Source of the DNA: Ruania zhangjianzhongii
GTDB taxonomy: Bacteria > Actinomycetota > Actinomycetes > Actinomycetales > Beutenbergiaceae
NCBI RefSeq assembly: GCF_008000995.1
Contig: NZ_CP042828.1
Location: 496,001-560,000, forward strand
Reading direction: 5' to 3'
Length of the DNA: 64,000 nt
Made by a program: the position numbers and the translations under genes. The notes beneath the pieces are model-generated. The model was not told the DNA's origin, ran no database searches, and saw nothing but the letters and a program-made list of their open reading frames with translations. Numbering within the stretch: position 1 is the first letter of the stretch; each line of letters starts with the position of its first letter. Below are positions 1-44,139 of this stretch, in pieces.

Positions 1-468
1 CGCACCGGCGTCGCTGACCGCGCCGGCGTCCTGTGCCGGCACCACCTCCGCCTGTCCGGCGGGCTCGGCCGCCGGAGCGCCGATTCGCCGGCGCAGCCGC
101 GCCAACGGCTGGAAAGACTGTGGGGAGGAGTGTTGCAGTGCGTGCAGTGCGTGCTCGGCGGCGACGTAGTCCCCGGCCGTTGCCGCGGTCCGGGCGGCAG
201 AGAGCGCCGCTCGCGCCGTCTCCGGGGTGACCGGGTGCGGCTGCGGCCGCCGCGGCGGCCCCGACCACACCGTGCCCTCGCTCAGCCAGATCAACTCGTC
301 GTCGGCTCCGCCGTACACCATCGCGCCGAGGCGGCCGTTTCCCACCGGCATCGCCTCCACCCACTCGGCCGCCGGAGTGCTCAGCTCGAGGCAGTGTGCA
401 GAGTCGGCGGACTCGGGGACCGCCGCTGAGCCGCTCGGCTGAACTGTGGACGAGAACGTTGACGACAC
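1..468 (-). CDS. GH95-family alpha-L-fucosidase-like protein, N-terminal part only (runs off window start)
   Basis: The reverse strand reads without a stop from a GTG at 468 to the window edge. It contains the GH95 N-terminal signature around residues 40-65 ([20 protein letters not shown], then YGG and LSEGTVWSG), closely matching the complete GH95 protein at 45566-47998. GH95 enzymes release alpha-L-fucose or alpha-L-galactose from glycans. I chose the GTG at 468 because GAGG lies 5 nt upstream; an in-frame GTG at 474 has no such site. No signal peptide is visible in the roughly 35 residues before the domain, so this copy looks cytoplasmic, unlike the Tat-exported second copy. It is divergent from the transporter at 734. 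The family call rests on the N-terminus only, because the catalytic barrel lies outside the window. Confidence 0.85.
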
Positions 469-733
469 CGTCACCTCGGAGAATCGATTTTACTGAGTGG
501 AGACACCATAGACCGTAGCCAGGTAATCCTGGCAACCCCTTCATACAAGCCTATTCAACGAATCTGTAGTTGGGGGTTGCGAATCGCTAGTAAGACATAT
601 TACCATCTGGACAAACGATTCACCAGACGAAGCGGTCACAGGTGCGCGACCCGGCTCCCGAGTCGCACGCGCCACGGCCGGGCGCTCATCGAGAGGAGCA
701 CGTAGCGGTGCAGACACAGGCCGGGCGTCGGCG
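469..733. promoter_or_regulatory. Divergent promoter region between GH95 (-) and sugar transporter (+)
   Basis: No gene is seen here. A perfect inverted repeat GCCAGGTAATCCTGGC (518-533) is a candidate operator for the GH95 side. For the plus strand, TTGCGA (577-582) and TACCAT (601-606) are 18 bp apart, the same -10 hexamer and spacing as the promoter at 4469-4498. A GAGGAG at 693-698 precedes a 9-codon GTG reading frame (708-737) whose stop overlaps the ATG of the permease at 734 (ATGA). This could couple translation of the permease, which has no clear ribosome site of its own. Confidence 0.45.
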
Positions 734-1711
734 ATGACACAAGCGCCTCCACTGCCCACCCTCGCGGCGAACAAGTTGCCGGCTGACCCGACGCCGCACC
801 GGCGACCCGGACGGCTGCGCAAGGCGCTGCGCCGGCGCTGGCAGCTCTACCTGCTGGTGATACCGCCGCTGGCCTACTTCGTGATGTTCCAGTACGTGCC
901 GATGGCGAACGGGATCATTGCGTTCAAGCACTACAACGTGATCGAGGGCATCTGGGGCAGCGACTGGGCCGGCCTGGAGTACTTCGAGCGGTTCTTCACG
1001 AACCCGATGTTCACCACAGTGGTCAGCAATACCTTCCTGCTGAGCCTGTACGCGCTGATCGCGAGCTTCCCGATCCCGATCATCCTCGCGCTCGCGCTGA
1101 ATGAGATCCGCGGCCGCTTCTTCAAGCGGACCGTGCAGATGGTCACCTACGCGCCGTACTTCATCTCCACGGTGATCGTGGTGTCGATGGCGATCCTTAT
1201 TCTCTCCCCGAGGATCGGGCTGATCAGTGAAGTGACCGGCTTCTTCGGGCTGCCGGCCACCGACTACCTGGCCCAACCGGACTTCTTCCGACATGTCTAT
1301 GTCTGGACCGAGGTGTGGCAGACGGCCGGCTACTCCGCGGTGATCTACCTGGCCGCGCTCGCCGGTGTCGACCCCGCCTTGTACGAGGCGGCGAAGGTCG
1401 ACGGCGCGAACCGGCTGCAGAAGATCTGGCACGTGGATCTGCCCAGCATCACTCCCACGATCGTGGTGGTGCTGATCCTTTCGGTCGGCAGCATCATGGC
1501 GGTCGGCTTCGAGAAGGCCTTCCTGCTGCAGAACCCGCTGAACCTGTCCCAGTCGGAGATCATCGCCACCTACACCTACAAGCTGGGCATCCAGAATGCC
1601 GACTTCAGCCTGGCGACGGCCGTGGGGCTGTTCAACTCGGTGATCAACCTGGTGCTGCTCCTCGTGGTGAACAAAGTGTCCAAGCGAGTGACGGGGAGCG
1701 GACTGTGGTGA
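734..1711 (+). CDS. LplB-type sugar ABC transporter permease
   Basis: Integral membrane subunit of a carbohydrate ABC importer. The 325 residues have a basic N-terminus, a first membrane helix at about 37-58 followed by the LplB-typical PMANGIIAFKHYN segment, further helices, and the EAA loop (EAAKVDGANRLQKIWHVDLPS) near residues 217-237 that contacts the ATPase. The family includes LplB/YteP transporters for aldouronates and rhamnogalacturonan oligosaccharides. It overlaps the next permease by a few bases and shares the operon with it and the binding protein. No ATPase is encoded nearby, so it probably uses a shared MsmX-type ATPase from elsewhere. ATG 734 is the only start in this frame near the preceding stop-overlapping mini-frame. 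Confidence 0.9.
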   Translation: MTQAPPLPTLAANKLPADPTPHRRPGRLRKALRRRWQLYLLVIPPLAYFVMFQYVPMANGIIAFKHYNVIEGIWGSDWAGLEYFERFFTNPMFTTVVSNTFLLSLYALIASFPIPIILALALNEIRGRFFKRTVQMVTYAPYFISTVIVVSMAILILSPRIGLISEVTGFFGLPATDYLAQPDFFRHVYVWTEVWQTAGYSAVIYLAALAGVDPALYEAAKVDGANRLQKIWHVDLPSITPTIVVVLILSVGSIMAVGFEKAFLLQNPLNLSQSEIIATYTYKLGIQNADFSLATAVGLFNSVINLVLLLVVNKVSKRVTGSGLW

Positions 1712-2631
1712 ACCTGCTGACTGCCCGACGGCGTTCTCGCTCCCGGCGGCCTACCCGGCCACGGGAGTCGCCCGTCGACCGAGTCTTTATGATCGGCGTC
1801 TACATCCTGTTGGTCACCTTCCTGCTCGTGGTGCTGCTGCCGCTGTGGTACATCGTGGTCAGCTCGGTGAGCAGCCCGGGGGCGGTCTCCGCCGGCCGTG
1901 TGTTCCTCTGGCCGGTGGAGTTCACCCTTCGTGGCTACGAGGTCGCGCTGACCAATCCGAAGATCCTCAGCGGCTTCGCCAACTCGCTGTTCTACACCGC
2001 GGTCGGAACTCTCCTCAGCGTCGCGCTGACGGTGATGCTCGCCTATCCGCTCTCCCGGGCGGACTTCGTCGGTCGCAAAGTGCTCACCGGGGCGGTCGTG
2101 TTCACCATGCTGTTCGCCGGCGGGATGATCCCGACCTACCTGGTGGTGCAGGCCACCGGGATGCTCGATACCCGCTGGGCGATGATCATTCCGAAAGCGG
2201 TGGCGGTCTGGCCGGCGATCCTGGCGATCACCTACTTCCGGTCAGCGATCCCGGACGACGTCCGCGAGGCCGGGGAGATCGACGGTGCCAGTGACCTGCG
2301 CATCCTGTGGAAGCTGATCCTTCCGCTTGCCACGCCGATGATCGCGGTGATCGCGCTGATGTACGCGATCGGACAGTGGAACTCCTACTTCGATGCGCTG
2401 ATCTATCTGCGCGACGACAGCCTCTACCCCTTGCAGCTGGTGCTGCGCAACATCCTCATCCTCAATACCGACTCCGGCGCCGATGCCGCCTCGGCCCTGG
2501 AGCGACAACAGTTGGCGAACTTGCTGAAGTACTCCCTCATCGTGATCTCGACGGTCCCGATGATGCTCATCTATCCGTTCGTCGCCCGTTACTTCACCAA
2601 GGGTCTGCTCCTCGGCGCGGTCAAGGGCTGA
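1705..2631 (+). CDS. LplC-type sugar ABC transporter permease
   Basis: Second membrane subunit of the same importer, 308 residues. It shows several hydrophobic helices, an EAA loop (EAGEIDGASDLRILWKLILP, about residues 190-210) and the family's characteristic C-terminal tail, YFTKGLLLGAVKG. The start is a GTG at 1705 with GGAG 6 nt upstream, overlapping the end of the first permease; GTG 1708 is an alternative. The same reading frame continues open far upstream inside the previous gene, but that stretch is out-of-frame shadow. The C-terminal tail matters because a near copy of it reappears as an isolated 17-codon frame at 4543-4596. Confidence 0.9.
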   Translation: MVNLLTARRRSRSRRPTRPRESPVDRVFMIGVYILLVTFLLVVLLPLWYIVVSSVSSPGAVSAGRVFLWPVEFTLRGYEVALTNPKILSGFANSLFYTAVGTLLSVALTVMLAYPLSRADFVGRKVLTGAVVFTMLFAGGMIPTYLVVQATGMLDTRWAMIIPKAVAVWPAILAITYFRSAIPDDVREAGEIDGASDLRILWKLILPLATPMIAVIALMYAIGQWNSYFDALIYLRDDSLYPLQLVLRNILILNTDSGADAASALERQQLANLLKYSLIVISTVPMMLIYPFVARYFTKGLLLGAVKG

Positions 2632-2696
2632 CCCCCGTGTACATCCCCTGCCGTCGACCCTCGCCGGCACCCCCTCACAACGAAGAGAGGCACCAT

Positions 2697-4358
2697 ATGA
2701 CACGCCGACACCGGATTGCGGCGGCGACGATCGCTACCGGCCTGGCCCTGACCATCGCTGCCTGTGCACCAGGCGGAGGAGGAGGTGGCGGCGATGGTGG
2801 TGGCGAAGATGACGGTGTCATCACCATCTACAGTCAGCAGGGCCCGGAATCGGATCTGAACACCAACGAGCTCACCCTGCTGCTCGAGGAGGAGTTCGAC
2901 GTCGACCTGCAGTTCGAGACCACCACCTGGGACGCGGGTGCAGCCTCGGAGTCCCGCCAGATCACCCTCGCCAGCGGCGACTACCCGGATGCGTTCCTGC
3001 TGATCCCGTGGGTGGATCAGTTCACCCCTGCTGAGCTGCTCAAGCTCGGTGACCAGGGAGTGATCCGGCCGCTGAACGATCTGCTCACCGAGAATGCCCC
3101 GAACCTCCAGGCGGCCTGGGAGCAGACACCGGAGTGGGAACAGCTCTCCACCGCGCCGGACGGGACGGTCTGGGGCCTGCCGCAGTGGAACGACTGCTTC
3201 CACTGCACCTACCCGTCCAAGCTGTGGATGAACTCCGCCTGGCTGGACGCCGTCGGGATGGAGCAGCCGACCACGCCGGAAGAGTTGCGGGCGGTGCTCA
3301 CCGCCTTCAAGGAGGACGACCCGAACGGGAACGGCCAGGCGGACGAGATCCCGATGACTGGCTTCTCCAGCTCGGTACTGCCGTACTTGATGAACCCGTT
3401 CGTCTACATGGCCTCGCCCACCGATGACGGCGTCATCCCGGCCTCGCTGGCCCTCGACGGCGACACGGTCACGCTGCAGCCGACCCTCGACGCCTGGCGT
3501 GAGGGGCTGACCTACGTCCACGCCCTGTACGAGGACGGCCTGCTGGACGAGTCCACCTTCACGCAGAACCAGGATGCCCTGCTCGCTACCGGCGACGTCG
3601 CGGGAGACCCGATCCTGGGCTCGACGGTGGTCGGCCACCCGGGCGTGTTCGTCACCATCGGCCAGGAGGACGGCCGGGACCGGAACTACGATCCGGTGCC
3701 GCCGTTGACCGGACCGAACGGGTCGCCGGCCTCGGAGATGCTCTCCTCGGTGGTGGGAGCGTCCTTCGCGATCACGTCGAATGCCAGTGATGAGGAAGCC
3801 GCGACGCTGGTGCAGATCGTCGACTGGATGATCGATTACGACAACCACCTCCGTGCCGAGTTCGGCGAGGAGGGCGTCGCCTGGGACTACCCCGAGGAAG
3901 GGGACGTCGCACTGGACGAGTCGCTGGACCCGCTGTTCGTGCGACACCGGCTCAGCGGTGCAGAGGCCACCGAGAACAGCAATGTGGCCTGGGGTCCGAT
4001 CGCGCAGTACTACGGCGACGAGGTGTTCCGCGGCTCCCAGGTGGTCGGCGAGGACATCTATGAACTCGCCAGCTATGAGCGGCGGCTGTTCGAGGCCACT
4101 GAGCCGTACGCGGAGAACAGCCCGGACGCGGCCTTCCCGTACTGGAATCTGTGGATCCCGGCGGAAAGTTCGGCCGAGTTGTCCACGGCACAGACCAATG
4201 TGGAGAACCTGGTGCTGCAGGCTGACGCCGAGTTCATCACCGGTGTGCGGGATATCGACAGTGATGCCGACTGGCAGGAGTTCCAGGATGCCCTGGTGGC
4301 CAACGGCAGTGAGCAGTACCTGCAGATCTACCAAGAGGCGTACGACGCCGCTGGCTGA
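2697..4358 (+). CDS. LplA-type extracellular sugar-binding lipoprotein
   Basis: Solute-binding protein for the upstream permeases, 553 residues. The N-terminus MTRRHRIAAATIA leads into a hydrophobic stretch and a lipobox ending in IAAC (Cys about 22), followed by a Gly/Asp-rich flexible linker, so the mature protein should be a membrane-anchored lipoprotein. The length and the motif DPNGNGQADEIPMTGF (calcium-loop-like DxNxNGxxDEIP) are typical of the LplA/LipO family binding pectin- or xylan-derived oligosaccharides. It lies 65 bp after the second permease and is preceded by AGAGAGGCACCAT. The ligand cannot be told from sequence; the flanking enzymes suggest a branched galactose/rhamnose-containing glycan. 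Confidence 0.9.
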   Translation: MTRRHRIAAATIATGLALTIAACAPGGGGGGGDGGGEDDGVITIYSQQGPESDLNTNELTLLLEEEFDVDLQFETTTWDAGAASESRQITLASGDYPDAFLLIPWVDQFTPAELLKLGDQGVIRPLNDLLTENAPNLQAAWEQTPEWEQLSTAPDGTVWGLPQWNDCFHCTYPSKLWMNSAWLDAVGMEQPTTPEELRAVLTAFKEDDPNGNGQADEIPMTGFSSSVLPYLMNPFVYMASPTDDGVIPASLALDGDTVTLQPTLDAWREGLTYVHALYEDGLLDESTFTQNQDALLATGDVAGDPILGSTVVGHPGVFVTIGQEDGRDRNYDPVPPLTGPNGSPASEMLSSVVGASFAITSNASDEEAATLVQIVDWMIDYDNHLRAEFGEEGVAWDYPEEGDVALDESLDPLFVRHRLSGAEATENSNVAWGPIAQYYGDEVFRGSQVVGEDIYELASYERRLFEATEPYAENSPDAAFPYWNLWIPAESSAELSTAQTNVENLVLQADAEFITGVRDIDSDADWQEFQDALVANGSEQYLQIYQEAYDAAG

Positions 4359-4515: not shown

Positions 4516-4542
4516 AACAGGAAGCAGTTTCGAGGAGAAAAC

Positions 4543-4596
4543 ATGGTCAGCCAGAAGATCATGAAGGGACTGACTTCCGGTGCCGTCAAGGGCTGA
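4543..4596 (+). pseudogene. 17-codon remnant of an LplC-type permease gene
   Basis: The frame MVSQKIMKGLTSGAVKG has a strong ribosome site (CGAGGAG, 6 nt before ATG) and its own promoter/operator. Its last ten residues, KGLTSGAVKG, match the conserved C-terminal tail of LplC-type permeases, including KGLLLGAVKG at the end of the gene at 1705-2631. This looks like the start and end of a permease gene joined after an internal deletion of nearly the whole coding sequence. The promoter and ribosome site survive and now feed the reductase that begins inside it at 4580. A genuine short leader peptide is the alternative. Confidence 0.6.
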
Positions 4597-5482
4597 CGCG
4601 ACACTCACCCCCTCGGCCATCACGCTGGGAACCTCCGGCCTCGGTGACCGGGCCGATGCAGTGGCGACCGCCCGGGCCCTCCTCCGGACCGAGCACGCCA
4701 TGATCGACACCTCGAACGCCTACGACGGTGGGCGCAGCGAGCAGGTCATCGGCCGGGCGATCGCCGACCTCGGCGGGCTGCCCGCACACGTCCAGGTGAT
4801 CTCCAAGGCCGATCGGGATCTCGGAACGGGCACCTTCGACCGGGACCGGGTGCTGCGCTCGTTCGAGGAGTCGACCTCCCGTCTCGGCCTGGACAGCCTG
4901 CCGCTGTACCAGCTGCACGATCCGTACACGATCACCGTGGCCGAGGCGATGGCACCGGGCGGCGCGGTGCAAGGACTGGTGGAGCTGCGGGAGCAGGGGG
5001 CGGTCGGCGCGATCGGGGTGGCGGCCGGCCCGTCGGCCCTGCTCACCGCGTACCTGGAGACCGGGGCGTTCGACGCTGTGCTCAGCCACAACCGGTTCAC
5101 CTTGGTGGACCGCTCCGCGGCGGACCTGTTCGATCGCGCCCGGCGGCGCGGCATCGTGGTCTTCAACGCCGCCCCGTTCGGCGGGGGCATGCTTGCCGAC
5201 GGCGCTCGTTCCGGTGCTCGGTATGCCTACCGGGATGCGCCGGCCGAGCTGCTCGCCTGGGTACAGCGCGCCGACGAGGTCTGCGCGAGGCATCGGGTGC
5301 CGCTGGCCGCTGCGGCGCTCGCCTTCTCCACCCGCCAGGTGATGATCTCCTCCACGGTGGTGGGGCTGGGCTCGCAGGCTCGGCTGACCGAACTGGCTGC
5401 CCTGCTGGCCACGCCGATCCCTGAGGACCTCTGGCCCGCCCTGGACGCGCTCGGCCCACCGCCGTCGCCACTGACCGACTGA
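4580..5482 (+). CDS. Aldo/keto reductase (aldose 1-dehydrogenase-like)
   Basis: NAD(P)-dependent oxidoreductase of the aldo/keto reductase superfamily, 300 residues. The catalytic tetrad is present: Asp43 and Tyr48 in MIDTSNAY, Lys76 in VISKAD and His113 in YQLHDPY. The general form resembles D-threo-aldose (L-fucose) 1-dehydrogenases, which oxidise sugars to lactones. That would suit fucose, galactose, arabinose or apiose released by neighbouring enzymes, but specificity is not readable from sequence. The GTG start at 4580 lies inside the 17-codon permease remnant (17-bp overlap), so it probably took over that gene's expression signals. A stop 41 bp before GH2 and the repeats there suggest one transcript. 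Confidence 0.8.
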   Translation: MPSRADATLTPSAITLGTSGLGDRADAVATARALLRTEHAMIDTSNAYDGGRSEQVIGRAIADLGGLPAHVQVISKADRDLGTGTFDRDRVLRSFEESTSRLGLDSLPLYQLHDPYTITVAEAMAPGGAVQGLVELREQGAVGAIGVAAGPSALLTAYLETGAFDAVLSHNRFTLVDRSAADLFDRARRRGIVVFNAAPFGGGMLADGARSGARYAYRDAPAELLAWVQRADEVCARHRVPLAAAALAFSTRQVMISSTVVGLGSQARLTELAALLATPIPEDLWPALDALGPPPSPLTD

Positions 5483-5522: not shown

Positions 5523-8500
5523 TTGGACCTGAGCTCCGTGCCGTACTACGACGACCCGGCCCCTGGTTCCGGGCGCCGCCACCCCCGCGCCGACTTCACC
5601 TCCGACGCCGCCCGGCTGAACCTGAACGGACAGTGGGCCTTTGCGCTCAGCCCCACGGCAGCCGGCACGGGGGAGAGCTTCTCCGACCCGGACCTGGACC
5701 TGACCGGCTGGGGCGAGATCGACGTCCCCTCGCACTGGGTGCTGCGTGGCCACGATGTGCCGCTCTACACCAACACCGCATTCCCGTTCCCGATCGATCC
5801 CCCCTACGCGCCGACGGCGAACCCCACCGGGGACTATCGGCGCACCTTCGACCTTCCGGCCGGGTGGCGCGCCGAGGGCAGCGTGCTCCGGTTCCAAGGA
5901 GTGGACTCCTGCGGGCGGGTCTGGCTGAACGGGGTGGAGCTGGGGCACTCGAAAGGCAGCCGGCTGCCGTTCGAGTTCGACACCGGCGCCGCCCTGCGGG
6001 AGTCCGGCAACGTGCTCTGCGTCCGGGTGCACCGGTGGTCCTCCGGCAGCTACCTGGAGGATCAGGACATGTGGTGGCTGCCCGGGATCTTCCGGGACGT
6101 CGAGCTGCTCGAGCGGCCGGCCGGCTGCCTGGACGACCTGTTCGTGTATGCCGATTACGACCACCACACTGGCGCCGGCCGGCTCCGGGTGGAGACCACC
6201 GGGCGTGGCGGCGCTGCGGTCACCGGAGAGCTGAGCATCCCCGAGGTCGGCCTGGTCGGTGTACCCACCAACGCTGACCACCGGATCGCCCACGTTGAGC
6301 CCTGGAGTGCCGAGGTGCCGCGGCTGTACCAGGCCACGGTGCAGGTCGGCGCCGAGCAGGTGGACGTGCCGGTGGGCTTTCGCACGATCAGCGTGGCTGA
6401 CGGTGTGCTGCGGGTGAACGGCCGCCAGGTGCACCTGCGTGGCGTCAACCGGCACGAGCACGACCCGGACCACGGCCGGGCACTGAGTGTGGCCACGATG
6501 CGCCAGGACATCCTGATGATGAAGCAGCACAACCTGAACGCGGTGCGCACCGCCCACTACCCACCGCACCCGGAGTTCCTCCGCCTGTGCGACAAGCTCG
6601 GGCTGTGGGTGGTGGACGAGAGCGACCTGGAGACGCACGGCTTCATCTACGCCGACTGGGACGGTAACCCGGTCGACGACCCCACCTGGGAGCCGGCGCT
6701 GCTGGACCGCACCGCCCGGATGGTGGAGCGGGACAAGAACCATCCGTCGGTGATCATTTGGTCGCTCGGCAACGAGAGCGAAGGCGGCAGTGGCTTCGCC
6801 GCGATCGAACGCTGGCTGCGCGAGCGGGATCCGAGCCGGCCGCTGCACTACGAGCGTGACAGGACCTACGCCCAGTCCGACTTCTACTCCCTGATGTACC
6901 CCTCCCTGGACGATCTGCGTGCGATCGCACAGCGCACCGAGCCTCCCCCGGAGGCGCTGGCCGATGACCCGGCGCTGGAGGAACGCCGTCGAGCCCTCCC
7001 GTTCCTGCTCTGCGAGTACGCCCATGCCATGGGCAACGGCCCCGGCTCGCTGGCCGACTATCAGGAGATCCTGGAATCCTCGGACCGGATGGCCGGGGCG
7101 TTCGTGTGGGAGTGGATCGACCACGGCATCCGCCGCACCGAGCCCGATGGCTCGCACGACTTCTGGCACGGTGGCCGATTCGACTATGAACCGAACGGGG
7201 GCAGCTTCTGCCTCGACGGGCTGGTCCGTCCCGATCGCACGCCCTCGCCCGGTCTGATCGAGCTGGCCAAAGTGCTCGAACCGGTGCGGCTGAGCGTGAC
7301 CGAGCAGGCCGTGCTGGTGCGGAACGCCCACGACGTGCTCAGCAGCGCCCACCTCGACTTCGTCTGGGAGATCACCCGGGACGGTGAGGTGTGCGGCAGC
7401 GGGGAGCTTCCGGTGCCAGTGCTCGAGCCTGGCGCGCAGGCCAGCGTGCCGTTGCCCACGCTGCCGGAGCCGGTCGAGGGGCCGGGAGAGGTCTGGCTCA
7501 CCGTGTCCGCGCGGCTGCGCGCCCCGACGCCGTGGGCCGAGGCTGAGCACGAGGTGGCGTGGGGGCAGGGCCGGCTCACCCCGGAGCTACGCACTCCGCC
7601 GCAGAGCCCGGCCGCCGCCGGCCGCATGACCGGGAACGCACCTGCTGGCGCGGCCGCCGGGAACCCACCTGTTGGCGCCGCCCCCGGGAATGCACCTGCT
7701 GGCGCCAGACCCGCCGTGCTGCAGGTCGGCCCGGCGCGTCTGGATGCTCGGACCGGGGAGGTGCTCGCTCTCGGTGACTGGGAAGTCAGTGGCTTCGGAC
7801 TGCACGTGTGGCGCGCCCCGACGGAGAACGACCGGGGCCAGGGAGAGCTGAACAACCTGGTGAAGGTGTGGCGCGCCGTCGGCCTGGACCGGATGGCCCA
7901 CCGCACTACCAGCGTGACACCGCTCGAGCAGGGTCTGCAGGTCAGCGCACGGGTGGCGCCCGCCACCCAGGCGTTCGGGCTGGACGTCACCTACACCTGG
8001 ACTCCGGCCGAGGACCACTCCGTGCGCCTGCAGGTGGGGGTCGCGCCCTATGGGCCGTGGCAGGACACCCCGATCGGTCACCATCAGGTGACGCTGCCGC
8101 GGCTGGGTCTGCGCCTGGAACTTCCCGCTGGACTGGACCAGGTGAGCTGGTTCGGGCTGGGCCCGGGGGAGAGTTACCGGGATAGCCACACTGCCGCCAA
8201 GGTGGGCAGCTACCGCGCCCGGATCGACGATCTGGACTTCGGCTACGTGGTGCCGCAGGAGAGTGGGAACCGGCACCGCACCCGCCGGCTCGAGCTCATC
8301 GGCCCGGGCTTCGCCCCGCTGCGGGTCAGCGGCGTGCCGACTTTCGACTTCAGCGCGCGCCGATGGTCGGACGAAGCACTCGACACCGCGGTCGCCGCGT
8401 ACCAGCTCCGCGCCGAGGACCGGGTGTACCTGCATCTCGACCACGCCCAGCACGGCCTCGGCAGTTCCTCCTGCGGGCCCGCCACCCCGGCGCGCTACCG

Positions 8501-28851: not shown

Positions 28852-28854
28852 GGT

Positions 28855-34728: not shown

Positions 34729-35715
34729 ATGGCCTACATGCCAGTGGCATTCACCCCCTCCAAAACGACCGCTTCCGCCGACCTGTCCGGTGTGCTGCCC
34801 CCGGTCGTGCTGCCGATGACCCCGGAGGGCGAGGTGGACTCGCCCTCGCTGCAGTCGCACGTCAGCCACCTGGTGTCCTCCGGTGTGCACGGACTCTGGG
34901 CAAACGGCACCACCGGCGAGTTCTATGCCCTGGACGGTGATGGCCGGGCCGAGGTGGTACGCCAGTGCGTCAAGGCCGCAGCCGGCCGTGTGCCGGTGGT
35001 GGCCCACGTTGGCGACACCACGACGAGCCTCACCGTGCGCCATGCGCGGGAAGCGCTTGCCGCTGGTGCTACCTTCGTCTCGGTGCTGCCGCCGTACTTC
35101 GTCAGCTTCGGACAGGAGGAACTCAAACGTCACTTCCGCGAGCTCGCGCACGCGATCGGCGTTCCCGTCCTCGCCTACCACCTGCCCCAGTTCATCCCGG
35201 CCACGCTGAGCATCGACTCGATCGTGGAGCTGACCGTCGAAGGCGTGCTCTGCGGAGCCAAGGACAGCAGCTCGAACATGGTCTGGTTCCGCCAGCTGCA
35301 GCGCCGTCTGCGCGCAGAGGGAGTGTCGCTGCCGTGCCTGACCGGCGGCTCGAGCGTCGCCGATCTCGGCTATCTGCTCGGGGCGGTCGGCTCGGTCTCG
35401 TCGACCGGGAACCTCACCCCTGCGCACCTGGTACGCCAGTACGAGGCCGCACAACAGGGCGACTGGACACGCGTCCTGGCGCTGCAGGAGCAGAGCGAGG
35501 AGCTGATCGAGCTGTTGACGCCCCCGGGCGCCACGCCCGGTCCCGGCCTGAGTGCCACGGTCTACAAGTACCTGCTGGCCAAGCAGGGGCGAATCGACTG
35601 CGAGTTCAGCGCCGCACCCCTGACCCAGCTCTCGCCGGAACAGTGCCGGTACTTGGACGAGCAGGTCCTGCCCGTCATCGCCCGCGTGGAGAGCCCGGCC
35701 GCCGAGCTCGTCTGA
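34729..35715 (+). CDS. DapA/NanA-family aldolase or lyase
   Basis: Class I Schiff-base enzyme, 328 residues, with the pyruvate-binding motif NGTTGEF (about 58-64), Tyr in VLAYHLPQF (about 147) and Schiff-base Lys in GVLCGAKDSSS (about 175). Members cleave or form 2-keto-3-deoxy sugar acids, sialic acid or dihydrodipicolinate. Next to pectin genes and a GntR regulator, a 2-keto-3-deoxy-acid aldolase is most plausible, but this is inference. The listed ATG 34729 has its AAGG too close; ATG 34738 has AAAGGA 8 nt upstream and may be the true start, which would place an operator palindrome exactly on the start codon. Confidence 0.8.
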   Translation: MAYMPVAFTPSKTTASADLSGVLPPVVLPMTPEGEVDSPSLQSHVSHLVSSGVHGLWANGTTGEFYALDGDGRAEVVRQCVKAAAGRVPVVAHVGDTTTSLTVRHAREALAAGATFVSVLPPYFVSFGQEELKRHFRELAHAIGVPVLAYHLPQFIPATLSIDSIVELTVEGVLCGAKDSSSNMVWFRQLQRRLRAEGVSLPCLTGGSSVADLGYLLGAVGSVSSTGNLTPAHLVRQYEAAQQGDWTRVLALQEQSEELIELLTPPGATPGPGLSATVYKYLLAKQGRIDCEFSAAPLTQLSPEQCRYLDEQVLPVIARVESPAAELV

Positions 35716-35765: not shown

Positions 35766-37781
35766 ATGATGTTTCCACCCACTCCAGAAGCGGGTGCTCC
35801 AGGCCGGATCTGGTCGAGCGCCGTGAGCCGCCGGTCGCTGCTGCTGACCGGAGGAGGGCTGGTAGCCACCGCCTCGTTGGCCGGCTGCTCGTTCTTCGAT
35901 ACCGACCCCGCACAAGGCCAGAACAACGGCGGCGCCGCCGGGCCCAAGGGTGCAGAAGCGCCGTCCCTGGCAGCCCAGGTAGAAGCCGGTGACCTGCCAC
36001 CGGTCGAGGAGCGACTGCCGAGCACACCACTGGTGGTGGAGCCGCTGAACGAGATCGGCCAGTACGGCGGCACCTGGCGGTCGGCGATGGTCACCGAAGA
36101 GGACCGGACCTGGCTCGAGCAGGCCATCGGCTACGAGCCGCTGATCCGGTGGATCCCGGGCTGGACCGATCAGCCAGGCACCGAGGAGATCATCCCGAAC
36201 CTCTGCGAGAGCTACGAGGAGCTCGAAGAGGGCCGGGTGTTCCAGTTCACCCTGCGCGAGGGGATGAAGTGGTCGGACGGTGAGCCGGTCACCGATGAGG
36301 ACTTCCGGTTCGCCTTCGAGGACGTGAATGTCTATCCCGACCTGCACCCGGGCGGCATCTACACCCTCTGGACGAACGTGAACGACCCGGAGAAGCCGGC
36401 CACGTTCGAAAGTGACGGCACCGTCATCCGCTACGTCTTCGACGATCCGAAGCCGGGCTTCCTCGAGGAGATCGCGTCCGGGACCACGATGGTGCTGCCC
36501 AAGCACTACTTCGAGCAGTTCCACGACAAGTACAACGACAATGTCGCCGAGCTGGTGTCCGAGGCCAACCTGGACGACTGGGTGCAGCTGTGGGAGTCCA
36601 AGAACGAGGCGTTCACCGATGTGGATCGGCCCACGCTGTACGCCTGGACGCTCACTGCCGCACTGGGCGATGGCAGCTACGTCGAGGCAGAGCGCAACCC
36701 GTACTTCTGGAAGGTGGATCCGGACGGCAGCCAGCTGCCGTACTTCGACTCGGTCCGCTGTGAGATCTTGCAGGACGTCGAGGTCGAGCTGTTGAAGATC
36801 ACCAACGGTGAGCTGGACATGCAGATGCGCAACTTCGACACCATCCGGAACCTCCCGGTGGTCTCGGAGAACCAGGAGAGTGGCGACTACCGGCTGTTCA
36901 GTACGTCCCCGCAGGGTCCGAACGCGATGGTGATCGGATTCAACCAGAACTTGGAGAATGACCGGAAGCGGGAGATCTACGCCAACAAGGACTTCCGCGT
37001 CGGACTGTCCTATGCGATCAACCGGCAGCGCATCATCGACACCATCTATGCCGGCCAGACCATTCCCTGGCAGTGTGCCCCGGTGGAAGGTCACCCCGCC
37101 TACAACGAGGAGTTCGGCACGCAGTACACCGAGTACTCGGTGGAGAAGGCGAACGAGGCGCTGGACCGGGCCGGTTACACCGAGACGGACGAGAGCGGTT
37201 TCCGGCTCAGCGAGGGTGAACGGATCAACATGACCGTGCTCGTCCCGGCCACGATGCCCGACCACCTCGATGCCTTCGAGATGATCAAGGCAGACTGGGC
37301 CGAGGTCGGCGTGGAGGTCAATGTCACGCCGTTGGCCGAGACCTTGTACTGGGAGCGGGTGGAGGCGAACCAGGCCGAGCTCTCCACCTGGACCGGGGGC
37401 GGCTTCGAGATCCGCGCCACGCAGGGTTCGAACCACTACTTCGTGCCCTCCAACCCGCGGGGTTCGTCCCGTTACGGCCACGACTGGGCCAAGTGGTATC
37501 GGGGGGAGAGCAGCGAGGAGCCACCGGAGATCATCCAGGAGCAGCTCGCGCTGTTCGATGAGATGCGGACCACCTACGATGCCGACGACGCGATCGAGCT
37601 GGCCCGCCAGGTCCTGGAGATCGCCAAGGACGAGTTCTTCTACATCGGCATCTGCACGGAGCCCGATGGTTATGGCGTGGTGAAGAACAACGTCGGAAAC
37701 GTGCCGGAGGAGATGCCCGGTGACGTCGGCTACCAGCCGCCGGGGCCGACCAACCCGGAGACGTACTACTTCTCCAGCTGA
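35766..37781 (+). CDS. Opp-type (SBP family 5) oligosaccharide-binding Tat lipoprotein
   Basis: Extracellular solute-binding lipoprotein, 671 residues. The N-terminus has twin arginine SRRSLLLTGGG and a lipobox LAGC (Cys about 41). The mature part starts with IGQYGGTWRSAM, the motif of plant-oligosaccharide binders within the peptide-type SBP family, followed by ATRP-like KWSDGEPVTDEDFRFAFED. It probably serves the OppBCDF transporter at 25396-29853, which lacks its own binding protein. ATG 35766 follows GAGGAGAACG. The open frame upstream (from 34965) is shadow of the aldolase. Confidence 0.88.
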   Translation: MMFPPTPEAGAPGRIWSSAVSRRSLLLTGGGLVATASLAGCSFFDTDPAQGQNNGGAAGPKGAEAPSLAAQVEAGDLPPVEERLPSTPLVVEPLNEIGQYGGTWRSAMVTEEDRTWLEQAIGYEPLIRWIPGWTDQPGTEEIIPNLCESYEELEEGRVFQFTLREGMKWSDGEPVTDEDFRFAFEDVNVYPDLHPGGIYTLWTNVNDPEKPATFESDGTVIRYVFDDPKPGFLEEIASGTTMVLPKHYFEQFHDKYNDNVAELVSEANLDDWVQLWESKNEAFTDVDRPTLYAWTLTAALGDGSYVEAERNPYFWKVDPDGSQLPYFDSVRCEILQDVEVELLKITNGELDMQMRNFDTIRNLPVVSENQESGDYRLFSTSPQGPNAMVIGFNQNLENDRKREIYANKDFRVGLSYAINRQRIIDTIYAGQTIPWQCAPVEGHPAYNEEFGTQYTEYSVEKANEALDRAGYTETDESGFRLSEGERINMTVLVPATMPDHLDAFEMIKADWAEVGVEVNVTPLAETLYWERVEANQAELSTWTGGGFEIRATQGSNHYFVPSNPRGSSRYGHDWAKWYRGESSEEPPEIIQEQLALFDEMRTTYDADDAIELARQVLEIAKDEFFYIGICTEPDGYGVVKNNVGNVPEEMPGDVGYQPPGPTNPETYYFSS

Positions 37782-37895: not shown

Positions 37896-38921
37896 TCAGA
37901 CGGTGGCGTGCGGCGCTCGCCCGGCGAGCGCTGCGGCTTGCCGCAGTGCTTCGGCCATGCTGGCCGTGGTGACCGTGCCGGTGCCGGCGATGTCAAAGGC
38001 GGTGCCGTGGTCCACGGAGGTGCGGATGACGGGCAGACCGACCGTGATGTTCACGCCGTCATCGATGCCGAGCACCTTCACCGGCCCGTGGCCCTGGTCG
38101 TGGTACATCGCCACGATCAGGTCGAAGTCTCCTCGAGTGGCCAGGAAGAAGGCGGTGTCCGCGGGTAGCGGCCCGTGCACGTCATGGCCGAGGGCCAGCA
38201 GCTCGTCGATGGCCGGCTGGATCTTCTCCGCTTCCTCGCCGTAGCCGAACAGCCCGTTTTCGCCCGCGTGCGGGTTGATCCCACACACCCCCACCCGCGG
38301 ACGGGTGATGCCGGCGCGTTCCAGGGCGTCGATGCCGCGGCTGATCGTGCGCTGCACCAGTGGGGGGTCGATCCGGTGGACCGCGTCCAGCAGGCCGATG
38401 TGCGTGGTGACATGGATGACCTTCAGCGTGGGCGTGCTGAGCATCATCGACACCTCCGACACCCCGGTCAGGTGTGCCAGCAGCTCGGTGTGCCCCGGGA
38501 ACAGGTGACCGCCGGCGTGCAGGGCGGCCTTGTTCAGCGGGGCGGTGGCGATCGCTGCCACGTCCCCCTCGTTCGCGTAGGCGGCGGCCCGCTCGATGTA
38601 GGTGTAGGCGGCATGGCCGGCGATCGGGCTGACCGCACCGAACGGGAGGTCCGCGGGAAGCTCACCCACACCGATCGTTTCGATCGTTGCCGGGCTCCCG
38701 AGGGACTCGCTCGGGTGCTGGATCTCACGTATCGGTGCGCGCACGTTCATCAGAGACGCCGCGTGCCGCATTCGTGGCAGGTCCCCGATCAGCACCGGGC
38801 GGCAGACGGCGAGAACCGTCGGGTCGAGGAGCGCGCTGGCGCAGATCTCGGGTCCGACGCCGGCCGGGTCGCCCATGGTCACCGCGATCACCGGAAGGGA
38901 TGTGGGGTCAGGTGTGGCCAC
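37896..38921 (-). CDS. PdxA-family dehydrogenase, likely 4-phospho-threonate/erythronate 3-dehydrogenase (PdxA2 type)
   Basis: NAD-dependent oxidative decarboxylase of 341 residues. The PdxA signature TMGDPAGVGPEI opens the protein. Metal-binding histidines are in HVTTHIGLLDAV (about 172) and AMYHDQGH (about 273), with GLPVIRTSVDHGTAFDIAG near the end. Paired with a DUF1537 kinase it matches the PdxA2 branch that converts 4-phospho-D-threonate (or erythronate) to dihydroxyacetone phosphate, rather than vitamin B6 synthesis. GTG 38921 overlaps the kinase by 14 bp; operon order is DeoR, kinase, dehydrogenase. Confidence 0.85.
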   Translation of the reverse strand: MATPDPTSLPVIAVTMGDPAGVGPEICASALLDPTVLAVCRPVLIGDLPRMRHAASLMNVRAPIREIQHPSESLGSPATIETIGVGELPADLPFGAVSPIAGHAAYTYIERAAAYANEGDVAAIATAPLNKAALHAGGHLFPGHTELLAHLTGVSEVSMMLSTPTLKVIHVTTHIGLLDAVHRIDPPLVQRTISRGIDALERAGITRPRVGVCGINPHAGENGLFGYGEEAEKIQPAIDELLALGHDVHGPLPADTAFFLATRGDFDLIVAMYHDQGHGPVKVLGIDDGVNITVGLPVIRTSVDHGTAFDIAGTGTVTTASMAEALRQAAALAGRAPHATV

Positions 38922-40107
38922 CGGGGGGCTCCTTATCAGGGGTCGGGGTGTGGTCCGCAGGTGCGGGGGTGGTCAGGTCGAGCAGCGTGTGTCGATCGCC
39001 GTAGCTGCCCGGTTTGGTCAGGACCGTGCGCCCGTCCACGGCGATCAGGCGAGCAACGGCGCCATGGCCGTGGGGCGCGGTGCGCAGCGTGGTGAGTCCG
39101 AGCTGCTCCAGCACCCGGCGCGCCGTATGTCCGCCGCTGAGGTAGAGGGCGACGGCGTTTCCCACACCGGCGATCGCGGCGCGGCAGGTGGTGGCGAGGG
39201 CCGTCATGGCCAGGCTGCTGCGGTACGCCGCGCGGCGTGGCTCCGGAGCCGGGGTCAGCACGGTGTGCGCTCCCCGGGCCAGTGCCTCGCGCACCTGCCG
39301 GGCAGCGGCGGCAATCGCGTGCGGATCCGGAGCGGGCGGTGCCTGCACGACCGCCGTCTGCGGGTCCCGCTGCCGGAGCGCGGCCACCTGAACCTGCCCG
39401 GCCGGCTCGGTGCTGCCGATCACCGCGAGCAGCTGTCGCACCGGAGCCGGTGTCCGCTCCGGTTCGGCGGCCGCAGAAACCGACCGGCCGTGCCCACCGG
39501 TATACCCCTGCGCCAACGCGCCGAGGAACGGAGCCGATCCAGCGGCGTGTGCCGGTGGACTGATCCGGCAGTGCCGGGCCAGCCGGTCCAGCTCTGCGGC
39601 ACTGGAGACGTCGGCAGTAACCAGGACCGGCGACGACGCGCTGAGCAGCTCGGGCAGTTGCCCGTACTCAGAAGCGGCCAGGTGGCGCTGGGGGAGCCCG
39701 GCGAACAGTGTGCGCAGCGCCGTGGCCGTGCCAGCGCCCGGTACGTGGTGGCGACCCTCGGCGGTGATCCTGCCGAGTGCCGGATTGGCGGCCGAGAGCA
39801 CCACGGACCGGCCGGTGGCGAGCAGTGCCGCGGCATAGGCGCGTACGGGGCCGCGCAGCTGAGAGTCCAGCTTGAAGAACACGCAACTGTCCTGGTCGAG
39901 GCGGGCGAGAGCAGGGGTGAGCCGGGATCGCGCCCGGACCTCGCCCTCGTGCCGCAGGTCCAGGTCCCAGACCGCCCCCGCTGCCGTGGGGAGACGGTCG
40001 CCGGTGCCGAGGTGGATCCGGATACTCTCCCCGGACGCCTGCTGCCAGGTGTCGGCTGCCTCGGCCGCGCCGCTGAGATCGTCCGCCCAGACGAGCGAGA
40101 AGGTCAT
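38908..40107 (-). CDS. DUF1537 four-carbon acid-sugar kinase (threonate/erythronate kinase-like)
   Basis: The 399 residues carry the N-terminal WADDLSGAAEAAD, FKLDSQLRG (about 78-86, the KxDSxLRG motif of threonate/erythronate kinases) and the C-terminal nucleotide region LYLSGGHTARRVLEQLG. Most relatives have an acidic residue where this one has His in SGGHTA, an oddity near the ATP site. It should phosphorylate a C4 acid sugar for the adjacent PdxA2-like enzyme. ATG 40107 overlaps the DeoR stop (ATGA). It is clearly divergent from the other DUF1537 kinase at 13986-15347, so the two probably have different substrates. Confidence 0.8.
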   Translation of the reverse strand: MTFSLVWADDLSGAAEAADTWQQASGESIRIHLGTGDRLPTAAGAVWDLDLRHEGEVRARSRLTPALARLDQDSCVFFKLDSQLRGPVRAYAAALLATGRSVVLSAANPALGRITAEGRHHVPGAGTATALRTLFAGLPQRHLAASEYGQLPELLSASSPVLVTADVSSAAELDRLARHCRISPPAHAAGSAPFLGALAQGYTGGHGRSVSAAAEPERTPAPVRQLLAVIGSTEPAGQVQVAALRQRDPQTAVVQAPPAPDPHAIAAAARQVREALARGAHTVLTPAPEPRRAAYRSSLAMTALATTCRAAIAGVGNAVALYLSGGHTARRVLEQLGLTTLRTAPHGHGAVARLIAVDGRTVLTKPGSYGDRHTLLDLTTPAPADHTPTPDKEPPGGHT

Positions 40108-40892
40108 CGGCGGGCGGGTTCGGCAGCAGAGGTGACGATGACCTCGCGCTCGGCACTGCGGAACTCGGCCAGGAAGTCCGGATCGGCGCCGTCATCGGTG
40201 ACCAAGGTCCAGGGCTGGGAGATCCTCGCCCAGCTGTGGAACGGTGACCGGCCCAGCTTGGTCGAGTGGGCGAGCACGTAGACCTGGCGGGAGCGCCGTG
40301 CCATCAGCTCCTTCAACCTGGTCTGGTCGAGCTCTGCCTCGCAGATCGCCCCGTCCGCGCTGACACCGTCAGTGCCGAGGAACAACCGGTCGAAGCTCAG
40401 CCGCTCCAGGTTCTGCTCGGTCAGCGGACCGACGAAGGCATCGGACAGCTCGCGCAGCCGCCCGCCGAGCGCAACCAGGTTCACCTCCGGTCGAGATCGG
40501 AGCAGGCTGATCACCGGGATGCTGGCGGTAGTGACGGTCAGAGCGTCCAGCGGCGGTAGCCGCCGGGCGAGCAGAGCAACGGTGGAGCCGGCATCGAGCA
40601 GGATGGACTCCCCGGCCCGGACCTGCTCGGCGGCCCAGCTCGCGATCGCGGACTTCGCGTTGAAGCCCTCGTGCTCTCGCTGCGGGAGGGAGGTCTCGGT
40701 GCGATCGCCCGCGGCGATCGCCCCGCCGTAGGTGCGGGCCAGCTGGCCCGACCGGCTCAACAGGGCGAGGTCGCGGCGGATCGTCGAAGCAGTGACACCG
40801 AAACGGACGGCAAGATCGTCCACGCTGGCCAAGCCCATCTCGGCCGCCAGAGCGACGATCTCTGCGCGACGCTGTTCCGTCTTGCTGGCCAT
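40104..40892 (-). CDS. DeoR-family transcriptional repressor
   Basis: The 262 residues have an N-terminal helix-turn-helix (about 20-55: VDDLAVRFGVTASTIRRDLALLSRSGQL) and a DeoR-type phosphosugar sensor domain with ILLDAGSTVALLA (about 95), FLGTDGVSADGAICE (about 175) and TKLGRSPFH. It likely represses its own kinase/PdxA2 operon and the divergent reductase in the absence of a phosphorylated intermediate. ATG 40892 follows AAGGGGACAGGTG. The open frame continuing to 42080 is shadow. Confidence 0.88.
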   Translation of the reverse strand: MASKTEQRRAEIVALAAEMGLASVDDLAVRFGVTASTIRRDLALLSRSGQLARTYGGAIAAGDRTETSLPQREHEGFNAKSAIASWAAEQVRAGESILLDAGSTVALLARRLPPLDALTVTTASIPVISLLRSRPEVNLVALGGRLRELSDAFVGPLTEQNLERLSFDRLFLGTDGVSADGAICEAELDQTRLKELMARRSRQVYVLAHSTKLGRSPFHSWARISQPWTLVTDDGADPDFLAEFRSAEREVIVTSAAEPARR

Positions 40893-40950
40893 CACCTGTC
40901 CCCTTCCGTCCGGACGAGCAGAGCTGCTTCTGCGGCTCGATCTTCTCACG

Positions 40951-40993: not shown

Positions 40994-41009
40994 ATTCCAG
41001 GGAGGATTC

Positions 41010-41987: not shown

Positions 41988-42021
41988 CCTGCCGTGCGCT
42001 GGGTGCTGAGGGGGTGAGGAC

Positions 42022-44139
42022 GTGGATATCGATCGGTCACTGACCGGTCCGCATCGCGGTCTGCGCTCGCGGCCTGGCACGCTGCTGCTCGGCCCGTCCG
42101 GCCGCCGGCTGTGGGCCGACTATCTCGAGGACCGGCCGGGGTTCGCCGGCCGGATCGACTACATCCACAAGCTGAACATGCCGCTGCTGTTCACCGTGCA
42201 TCCCGGCTACGCCTCCGATCCCCAGCGCAGCATCGGGCAGTGGTTGCCCTCGCAGCTGCGCACCGAGCAATCCTTCGGTGCCGTGCGGCTGGCCGAGACT
42301 CGGTTCATCACCTGGGACGACCGGGCCGTGTCGATCCAGCACTGGCGCAACGAGGGCAGCTCGCCGATCACGCTGCGCGCCGAGTACGACCCCGAGCTGA
42401 TCACGGACACCGGGCCCGGCGGGCTCCGCGGCCGGCGCTACATCGACCAGCACGACTTCACCCTGCTGGTCCAGCTCACCGCCTCTCGCGAGGACCTCTG
42501 GGACGGGATCCGGCTCGAACCCGGCGCTGCGTGCGAGCTGACCCTGATGGCGACCGTGGGGCACCTCCCCGGCGAGGCCGCCGCGGCCCCGGAGGGGGAG
42601 GCCGGCCGTTCACCGGCGCCCGCACTACCCACCGGTGCCGCACTGCTGGCCGCGCACCAGCGTGAGTACCAGGACTGGTTCTCCTCGGTGCCGACCCTGA
42701 CCAGCAGCAACGAACTGCTGGACCGACTCTGGGCCTACCGCTGGTACATCCTGCGCAACTCACTCAGCGAACCAGGCCTGGGCCATCTGCCCGGGCGGGT
42801 GATGTACGAGGGCCGCTCGCACAAGATGGCCAAGGAGCCCTGGCGACCCAAGGGCTGGGAGTTCAGCAAGCTCATCCCGCTGTCCACGTCGCTGCACGTG
42901 CAGGACCTGCGCTGGCGCGCCGATGCGGCGGACACGATCGAGGTGCTGGCCTCGGCCGCGCGGCTGCAGGGCGCGGACGGCCAGCTCTACTCGCACACCG
43001 TCACTCAGCGGATGAAGCCGTACGCCAACTACTTCGGGCACGCGATGGCGTTGTTCGCCCAGCTGCACGGCGCCGACGCGGTGCCCGACGCGGTACTGGC
43101 CGCGGCGAAGGAGCAGGTCCGTGGCGACCGGCGCCAGCTCGCCACCTCCAGCGATGAGCTGCCGGTCCAGTACGACCACAAGCGGACCGGTAAGGAGTAC
43201 CAGCCCAGCTACTGGTACTTCCACGACTATCCCGCTAACGCCAAGGACAAGGCCACCTACACCCCGCTGAAGCGCGTCGACCGCGCGGTCTACCAGTACC
43301 TGAACGCGACCGGAGTCGCCTCCCTCTGCGTCAGCCGGAACGACCCGGACGAGCAGGAGTTCGCCGACCTGGCTGACCGCCTCGCCGCCGCCATTCTGGC
43401 CAAGCAGTGGGATCCGGACACCGAGTTCTTCTACGACCTGCACCACCGCTCCGGCGAGATCGCCCAGGTGCGTAACGTCGTCGGCTTCTATCCCTGGTGG
43501 GCCGGTCTGACCGATGATCAGCACACGGCGGGGCTACGCCGCGCGCTCGGTCCGGACTACTTCGGCGGGGCCGAGGCCTACCCGTCCGTGGCCCAGGACT
43601 GCCCGGCGTTCCGGCCGGGCGGCGGCTGGCTGGGGAACTTCTTCAAGGGCCGCAACGGGTGCATGTGGAACGGCCCCAGCTGGCCGTACACCACGGCGAT
43701 CACCCTGGATGCGATCGGGCGGAATGTGGGCTCGGCGCCGGATCTGGCCGAAGAGTTCGCGGCCGGATTCTGGGCGCTCGCGCGCCAGCACTTCCGTGAC
43801 GGCGATGTGGCGGTGCCCTATCTGGTGGAGCACTATGACGGGCTCACCGGGGAGCCGATCAGCGATGAGCCGGACTACAACCACTCCTACCTGATCGACC
43901 TGATCGTGCAGTACGTGGCCGGGCTGCGGGTCGAGCCGGACGGACTGTTCCTGGAACCGGTGGAGATCGACCTGGGGGAGTTGCACCTGGCGGGCCTGCC
44001 AGTCGGGACGCACCGGTTCACGATCGAGCTGACCGGGCAGGGCGAGGGTCGTGTCGCCCGGGTGGGCTGCGGCGACCAGGTCCTGTTCGACGGGCCCGTC
44101 CGCGGCCGGGTGCAGATCCCGAAGTGCGCGCACGCCTGA
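42022..44139 (+). CDS. MGH1/GH63-like (alpha/alpha)6-barrel glycoside hydrolase
   Basis: The 705 residues have an N-terminal beta-sandwich (about 15-190) followed by a helical barrel (about 215-640). The segment NGPSWPYTTAITLDAI (about 552-567) and the preceding FKGRNGCMWNG are typical of trehalase/GH63/mannosylglycerate-hydrolase-like barrels; RSHKMAKEPWRPKGWEFSKLIPLS and YPWWAGLTDDQ also fit. There is no signal peptide. The substrate cannot be read; related proteins in pectin clusters act on rhamnose- or arabinose-containing glycans. The GTG start at 42022 follows GGGGTGAGGAC. The gene closes the pectin-type region. Confidence 0.7.
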   Translation: MDIDRSLTGPHRGLRSRPGTLLLGPSGRRLWADYLEDRPGFAGRIDYIHKLNMPLLFTVHPGYASDPQRSIGQWLPSQLRTEQSFGAVRLAETRFITWDDRAVSIQHWRNEGSSPITLRAEYDPELITDTGPGGLRGRRYIDQHDFTLLVQLTASREDLWDGIRLEPGAACELTLMATVGHLPGEAAAAPEGEAGRSPAPALPTGAALLAAHQREYQDWFSSVPTLTSSNELLDRLWAYRWYILRNSLSEPGLGHLPGRVMYEGRSHKMAKEPWRPKGWEFSKLIPLSTSLHVQDLRWRADAADTIEVLASAARLQGADGQLYSHTVTQRMKPYANYFGHAMALFAQLHGADAVPDAVLAAAKEQVRGDRRQLATSSDELPVQYDHKRTGKEYQPSYWYFHDYPANAKDKATYTPLKRVDRAVYQYLNATGVASLCVSRNDPDEQEFADLADRLAAAILAKQWDPDTEFFYDLHHRSGEIAQVRNVVGFYPWWAGLTDDQHTAGLRRALGPDYFGGAEAYPSVAQDCPAFRPGGGWLGNFFKGRNGCMWNGPSWPYTTAITLDAIGRNVGSAPDLAEEFAAGFWALARQHFRDGDVAVPYLVEHYDGLTGEPISDEPDYNHSYLIDLIVQYVAGLRVEPDGLFLEPVEIDLGELHLAGLPVGTHRFTIELTGQGEGRVARVGCGDQVLFDGPVRGRVQIPKCAHA

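Follow-up and report, generated by a model that had tools for sequence, protein, structure and literature searches.

A probable L-aceric acid catabolic module with a RuBisCO-like protein in a candidate rhamnogalacturonan-II locus of Ruania zhangjianzhongii

Which plant polysaccharide is served by a dense cluster of sugar-processing genes in the actinobacterium Ruania zhangjianzhongii, and what becomes of the sugars released there, are the questions raised by the 64,000-nucleotide window analysed here (bases 496001–560000 of contig C2, NZ_CP042828.1, in a genome of 5.1 Mb in two contigs). A sequence-only reading of this DNA had proposed a pectin locus resembling those for rhamnogalacturonan-II (RG-II) and had listed its enzymes, and most of them were found to be present, the gene identities being confirmed by Pfam searches of the window proteins, with GH28 located by direct reading of the frames. 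We consider it rather probable that the region is a locus for the cytoplasmic use of RG-II pectin, at least of its side chain B, and that its core is a four-gene module for L-aceric acid. The module itself is probable and the activities of its enzymes are predicted. Its genes lie side by side on the reverse strand and encode an Asp/Glu-racemase-fold protein matching PF01177, named here RAC, a candidate aceric acid isomerase (11341–11985); a glycoside hydrolase (GH) of family GH127 and of the BT1003, or aceric-acid-hydrolase, type, whose C-terminal tail lies in a different frame in the assembly (11985–13992); an OiaK-like DUF1537 sugar-acid kinase with SBD_N/NBD_C domains (13986–15347); and an OiaX-like RuBisCO-like protein (RLP) matching Pfam RuBisCO_large, with a 2-carboxy-3-keto sugar phosphate as predicted substrate (15344–16591). 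In the earlier reading, parts of this module appear only under the labels "an RLP" and "two sugar-acid kinase modules". If the aceric acid reading is true, the module would fill a gap in the recycling of RG-II, the most complex of the plant polysaccharides.

When compared with solved structures, the GH127 protein matched best with 5mqo (E 1e-133), which we take to be the structure of BT1003, and less well with the arabinofuranosidases 4qjy (3e-85) and 3wkw (1e-66). Aceric acid hydrolase activity is described for BT1003 of Bacteroides thetaiotaomicron (PMC10850190, PMC5698469). The alignment showed four stretches common to GH127 and 5mqo and not to the arabinofuranosidases (NFETYNLGH, CPSHYM, YDGxSPD and HQxYGRP), whereas the Cys-Cys-Pro motif of the zinc site was common to all of them. 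In a sample of 297 genomes of the order, the GH127-family matches at E 1e-100 or better were clearly split by score: 13 reached at least 616 bits, and the other 66 did not exceed 477 bits. All 13 high-scoring loci were examined, together with the 17 of the 66 low-scoring ones that the search gave as loci. The four motifs were present in 13 of 13 high-scoring and in 0 of 17 low-scoring loci; in 28 further loci that were compared, two of the motifs were found in all 28 and two in 26. The CxCCP form of the zinc motif was missing in two of the 13 high-scoring and three of the 28 compared loci, where the first place is Ser or Val, and these exceptions keep Cys-Cys-Pro together with an upstream Cys. 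The closest named relative found for the GH127 query was from Candidatus Ruania gallistercoris (86% identity). By motifs and nearest structure the GH127 is assigned to the aceric-acid-hydrolase type and not to the arabinofuranosidase type. Aceric acid is 3-C-carboxy-5-deoxy-L-xylose, and it occurs 2-substituted and linked to O-3 in side chain B of RG-II, beside rhamnose, methylfucose, arabinopyranose, galactose and apiose (PMC8218411). RG-II as the target, as proposed earlier, is therefore supported through a sugar that the sequence-only reading had not named, since the type assigned to the GH127 points to aceric acid, a known constituent of RG-II; the argument that the reading had drawn from apiose was weak, as discussed below.

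The genes beside GH127 were then counted in the same loci. The kinase lay within about 1.5 kb of GH127 in all 13 high-scoring loci; the RLP was detected in nine by tblastn, and in three more it was recognised from its C-terminus where the stretch ends, the contig of the thirteenth (L053) ending inside the kinase before an RLP could appear; and RAC was found in 12 of the 13. None of the three was found in any of the 17 low-scoring, ordinary GH127 loci examined. In a sample of 394 genomes of the class, nine had a match at E 1e-150 or better, six of these being new, and the six new loci all contained the kinase and the RLP, with RAC within reach in four. When both samples were pooled, the aceric-type GH127 loci had the kinase in 19/19 and the RLP in 18/19, the contig of the remaining one ending first. 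A separate comparison covered 30 loci (28 of them from named records), of which 28 hold GH127; L033 and L034, retrieved only through RAC, were not counted. The query that fetched the named loci included RAC, and the RLP and kinase were not part of it. The kinase was present in 28 of these 28 loci, the RLP in 27 (one contig ends first) and RAC in 26, in addition to GH2 in 17, a SorC regulator in 16, GH78 in 14 and an aldo/keto reductase in 10. The sets of loci are not independent because some loci belong to the same genomes (L009 is G020, L005 is G004 and L013 is probably G006; L047/L086 and L048/L087 are the same places). The order of the four genes was found to vary (RLP-kinase-GH127-RAC; RAC, importer, GH127-RLP-kinase; GH127-RLP-kinase-GH2), a variation that speaks for selection keeping the genes linked, and the module occurs in Ruaniaceae, Microbacteriaceae, Micrococcaceae, Jiangellaceae, Cellulomonadaceae and other families. 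An ordinary general pectin or rhamnogalacturonan-I locus, in which the linkage has no pathway meaning, would agree with the presence of GH2, GH78, GH28, CE8 and GH42, which are common pectin or galactan enzymes. However, the linkage persists through several gene orders and families and was absent in the 17 ordinary GH127 loci that were examined, and we regard this explanation as very unlikely.

The nearest named families of the RLP and the kinase in NCBIfam were OiaX and OiaK (OiaK/OiaX models NF042436/NF042437). D-apionate catabolism has a branch formed by OiaK and OiaX (Carter et al, 2018, as cited in PMC6302742), and RLPs are described to decarboxylate or to transcarboxylate/hydrolyse 3-oxo-isoapionate 4-phosphate (PMC6302742). 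The module resembles this branch in pairing a DUF1537 kinase with an RLP on a 2-carboxy-3-keto sugar phosphate, as predicted here, and differs from it in its entry by a racemase-fold protein instead of an oxidoisomerase, in the GH127 that is built in, and in scores below the family cut-offs. The RLP carries the RuBisCO-type KDDE, HR, H and loop-6 Lys positions, and K154, K180, D182, E183, H269, R270, H302 and K309 were kept in 33 of 33 aligned RLPs. By our equivalence to RuBisCO numbering, we take K180 to be the carbamate Lys, D182 and E183 to be metal ligands and K309 to be the loop-6 Lys; the position that we equate with K177 of RuBisCO was Ser in all 33. Such RLPs are rare: at E 1e-80, a match was present in 6 of the 396 phylum genomes searched. 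When 37 RLPs were placed in a tree, those of the module grouped together (99/90), with the long-branch L085 inside the group and some forks open. RLP-kinase pairs without GH127 in the stretch were seen in L083, L084, L085 and L090, and L083 and L090 share a similar third gene, a PGDH_C protein in L083; we take PGDH_C, here as elsewhere, to be of the ApnO type.

RAC matched PF01177, the Asp/Glu/hydantoin racemase family, at 64.7 bits (cut-off 31) and racemases of known structure at E 5e-6 to 5e-5. In the alignment the first catalytic Cys was invariant and the second column was Gln in 13 of 13 sequences. RAC should not be a two-base racemase, because one catalytic Cys is kept and Gln stands at the other, and its single base would fit an enediol isomerase. 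Furthermore, a relative of RAC (43%) in L034 adjoins OtnC (302 bits, cut-off 250) and OtnK (552 bits, cut-off 350), and the 3-oxo-tetronate pathway in its known form has an isomerase at the point where this relative sits. The OtnI/OtnK/OtnC pathway is generally known to run from an isomerase over a DUF1537 kinase to a decarboxylase, as is proposed here, and a RAC relative occurs in such a locus; the decarboxylase there is a relative of class II aldolases, whereas here it is an RLP.

The window genome shows a GH127-racemase open reading frame of 883 aa and a GH95-CoA-transferase one of 1210 aa, and both were rejected as real fusions. The glycosidase end of each aligns in a different frame in the window genome, and in relatives the genes are separate, overlapping or neighbouring (GH127-RAC was read in L005 to L011 and L021, and GH95-CoA transferase in L092, L095, L097, L098 and L101). 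The frameshift sites lie near the gene ends, at 11985–12047 of the window and at about 15924–16238 of L003, a stretch of this genome that reaches upstream of the window. Judged from these alignments, both apparent fusions are frameshifts of this genome or of its assembly, and they count as no evidence that the second enzyme follows the first.

Beyond the gene identities, the BT1003-type signature of GH127, the conserved linkage, the RLP active site and the lost second Cys of RAC, we infer the substrates, the order of steps and the products of a pathway. The galactose of side chain B sits on aceric acid, and the linked LacZ-type GH2 (5538–8555, forward strand), a candidate for this beta-galactose, and the GH78 alpha-L-rhamnosidase (8591–11281, forward), both identified by Pfam, fit the removal of galactose and rhamnose ahead of GH127. 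GH2 would take beta-galactose off the aceric acid, and GH127 would then free the aceric acid from imported oligosaccharides. RAC would turn this aldose into the 2-ketose CH2OH-CO-C(OH)(COO-)-CHOH-CH3, the OiaK-like kinase would phosphorylate the CH2OH adjoining the ketone, and the OiaX-like RLP would act on the resulting 2-carboxy-3-keto phosphate. The ketose is the one-carbon homologue of 3-oxo-isoapionate (CH2OH-CO-C(OH)(COO-)-CH2OH, as generally known), which is the substrate of OiaK/OiaX, and one kinase and RLP chemistry would serve for either compound. Apionate needs an oxidation and aceric acid, an aldose, needs only an isomerisation, the step proposed for RAC. Decarboxylation by the RLP would give a 5-deoxy-pentulose 1-phosphate, which an aldolase would split into dihydroxyacetone phosphate and acetaldehyde; transcarboxylation/hydrolysis would give 3-phosphoglycerate and lactate, with no aldolase needed. 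Cleavage of 5-deoxyribulose 1-phosphate to dihydroxyacetone phosphate and acetaldehyde has been proposed (PMC6302742). An FAD/Fe-S 2-hydroxyacid dehydrogenase-like protein was found nearby in 8 of 28 loci (one member, in L018, was identified), and it mildly favours the transcarboxylation/hydrolysis outcome; the lactate expected is the L form, which does not obviously match the D-specific relatives of this protein. A class II aldolase as a member of the module was considered and rejected, all three class II aldolases of the genome lying elsewhere.

No description of aceric acid catabolism was found among the papers listed by literature searches, as judged by titles and abstract openings, most subscription papers being outside their coverage. 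What is new here is a probable module for aceric acid catabolism, with an RLP, in actinobacteria. For the larger proposal, a first aceric acid catabolic pathway built on a single-Cys racemase-fold isomerase and on an RLP using a 2-carboxy-3-keto phosphate, a close structural analogue of the six-carbon intermediate of RuBisCO, and distributed patchily over several actinobacterial families, we hold the balance to be about level. If true, it would mean a new reaction for the RuBisCO superfamily and a new chemistry for the Asp/Glu racemase fold, and the four-gene module would be a genomic marker for aceric acid use. The defined module makes the fate of released aceric acid directly testable.

Several observations weigh against this pathway. 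We know of no racemase-fold aldose isomerase. RAC was outside the stretch or missing in 3 of the 19 pooled loci (L112, L113 and L047, a longer stretch of which shows RAC) and in 2 of the 28 compared ones (L012 and L014). A Leucobacter locus (L026, 5072–9661) contains the RLP, kinase and RAC with a major facilitator superfamily transporter and no GH127 in its 19.6 kb, a set that may serve for scavenging the sugar acid in its free form. In Bacteroides ihuae the hydrolase family was found above its cut-off and OiaX gave no match at E 1e-80, and therefore the release of aceric acid needs no such module. The module has no conserved aldolase, and no class II aldolase was seen among the families shared by at least four of the compared loci. 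The RLP scored 408 bits with OiaX and the kinase 215 bits with OiaK, both below the curated cut-offs of 700. The GH127 is like BT1003 in its family, its Cys-Cys-Pro motif, the shared motifs and 5mqo as best solved relative; it differs in having no recognisable signal peptide, in its linkage to a catabolic module and in scoring 614 bits with the NCBIfam "aceric acid hydrolase" model NF049879, whose curated cut-off of 950 was reached in 0/297 genomes of the order and 0/394 of the class. For other GH127 relatives, those of Zobellia in a carrageenan locus, new specificities were suggested by the authors (PMC5698469). This suggestion and the missed NF049879 cut-off would also agree with GH127 and the module acting on some other furanosidic sugar, branched or carboxylated, such as one from a microbial or algal glycan, but the presence of the BT1003-shared motifs in all 13 high-scoring and none of the 17 low-scoring loci and the surrounding pectin enzymes CE8, GH28 and GH78 speak against it, and we consider such a substrate unlikely.

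The low kinase and RLP scores bear also on apiose, another sugar of RG-II (PMC8218411). The RLP and kinase could genuinely be OiaX and OiaK, serving apiose by way of apionate, with GH127 as a mere neighbour, as their nearest named families and the DUF4038 "apiosidase-like" proteins nearby would suggest, but the OiaX and OiaK cut-offs are missed by a wide margin, and the L083 pair, next to a PGDH_C protein, reaches higher scores (549 and 532 bits), yet stays below the cut-offs too. No PGDH_C match was found in the window genome, in contrast to six of the seven other genomes of the genus. In a sister Ruania (G007), an ApnL-like protein (188 bits, cut-off 750), a PGDH_C protein and a TIM-barrel-type protein with weak epimerase matches, which we presume to be OiaC, form a cluster of their own about 40 kb from the module; G007 thus seems to hold an RLP-free apionate route beside the module. 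Apiose is less likely because of this separate apionate-type cluster and the missing PGDH_C. In addition, the linkage is to an aceric-type GH127, and 6 of the 28 stretches contain a relative of one DUF4038 protein (DUF4038a). On the PGDH_C result and this linkage we ranked apiose below aceric acid as the module's main substrate, and we find the apiose pathway quite unlikely.

Two DUF4038 proteins had been cited for apiose in the sequence-only reading. One of them (22830–24248, reverse strand, DUF5060/DUF4038/DUF5605) matched PF13204 at 70 bits, and its nearest and, in the search made with one of the two proteins, sole solved relative was 4n0r; the other (21520–22833, reverse) is a DUF5605 protein (70 bits) in which PF13204 was weak (12.8 bits, cut-off 26.5). 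We take a GH140 apiosidase to combine PF13204 with PF12904 as second domain. Neither window protein has PF12904, and they were rejected as proof of an apiosidase; both are also absent in Occultella aeris from the place between the 697-aa and BNR genes, and the apiose argument is weak for this window. The Occultella glacieicola locus has, at its edge, a gene of the GH140 architecture (PF13204 338 bits, PF12904 69 bits), and the one PF12904 match of the window genome is at 4.36 Mb, outside the locus.

The aceric acid reading places the chemistry in the cytoplasm. A simple twin-arginine (Tat) and hydropathy test was applied to 17 glycan-active enzymes (12 with genes in the window and five upstream or mostly so), and a twin-arginine signal was seen in two, the "PL1" protein (30297–32615, forward) and a GH95 (45566–47998). 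The check is crude, since the start codons are our own calls and the hydropathy value alone fails to tell the classes apart, GH127 (1.35) and the 697-aa protein (1.36) both exceeding the Tat GH95 (1.23). Within this limit it bears out the earlier statement that most glycosidases have no signal peptide and that PL1 and one GH95 are Tat proteins. The import of oligosaccharides and their dismantling in the cytoplasm fit the missing signal peptides, whereas the novelty that had been claimed for this strategy fell away. Gram-positive bacteria commonly process imported oligosaccharides inside the cell, and because of this the novelty is placed in the RLP-kinase-racemase module. RG-II breakdown enzymes are known mainly from Bacteroides, and the present locus is like the RG-II loci there, as generally known, in having GH2, GH78, GH95 and GH127 together; it is different in its ABC importers and in enzymes mostly without signal peptides, and the proteins of the locus that were scanned with Pfam gave no SusC/D match.

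Transport genes in 1–44139 form two ABC systems. The Lpl-type importer (734–4358, forward) consists of permeases at 734–1711 and 1789–2631 and a binding protein without Pfam match at 2697–4358, and it has orthologues in Occultella; the Opp-type importer (OppF, OppD, OppC and OppB; 25396–29853, reverse; Pfam) is grouped with an SBP_bac_5 binding protein (35823–37781, forward). An aldo/keto reductase (4580–5482, forward) is often beside GH2 in relatives. At higher coordinates than the RLP lie a CE8 pectinesterase-like gene (16729–18045, reverse; Pfam) and a GH28 (18224–19558, forward, ATG at 18224; PF00295, 87 bits), which was located by reading frames and is absent from the automatic gene calls. 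They are followed by the gene of a 697-aa protein (19433–21526, reverse), the DUF4038 pair and a BNR_2 protein (24245–25354, reverse; Pfam). Further on, the "PL1" assignment stood in its Tat signal and was weak in its family match (Pectate_lyase_4, 17.6 bits, cut-off 24). A DHDPS-family aldolase/dehydratase (34729–35715, forward; Pfam/NCBIfam) and an MGH1-like glycosidase (42022–44139, forward; Pfam) are also present. Both GH95 enzymes of the earlier list exist, the intracellular-type one having only its 5' part in the window (1–456, reverse) and the rest upstream, and the Tat one lying past 44139, where the listed locus was taken to end. A tetronate/threonate-type module of PdxA, a second DUF1537 kinase and a DeoR regulator (37896–40892, reverse) adjoins the pectin locus.

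The window region is largely collinear with Occultella, and because of this the gene set is more than a chance grouping. The order in Occultella glacieicola is GH42, GH32, a 691-aa protein, LacI, GFO/IDH, amidohydrolase, MaoC, a binding-protein-like gene, CoA transferase and GH95, and then the Lpl importer, an extra importer, aldo/keto reductase, GH2, GH78, RAC, GH127 and kinase up to the contig end. The extra importer has no counterpart in the window, and a second GH78 of the window genome (L003:5742–7982) has none in the Occultella glacieicola locus. Occultella aeris (L007) continues with RLP, CE8, the 697-aa gene, BNR and OppF.

The 697-aa protein and a 691-aa protein (L003:8062–10137) have no family match and have Occultella relatives of 74% and 82% identity. 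The former gave no Pfam match even at E 10 and, among solved structures, short amylase matches alone (E 0.005 or worse). Both are candidates for new glycosidase families. The intracellular-type GH95 is followed directly by genes for a CoA-transferase III, a binding-protein-like protein, MaoC, an amidohydrolase and GFO/IDH (L003:11235–15924; about 489–494 kb of C2, upstream of the window), and this block recurs, whole or in part within the stretches read, in Ruania and Occultella. The block may encode a CoA-dependent pathway for the sugar that GH95 releases. A GH123-family match of 333 bits was observed elsewhere in the genome, at 860 kb of C2.

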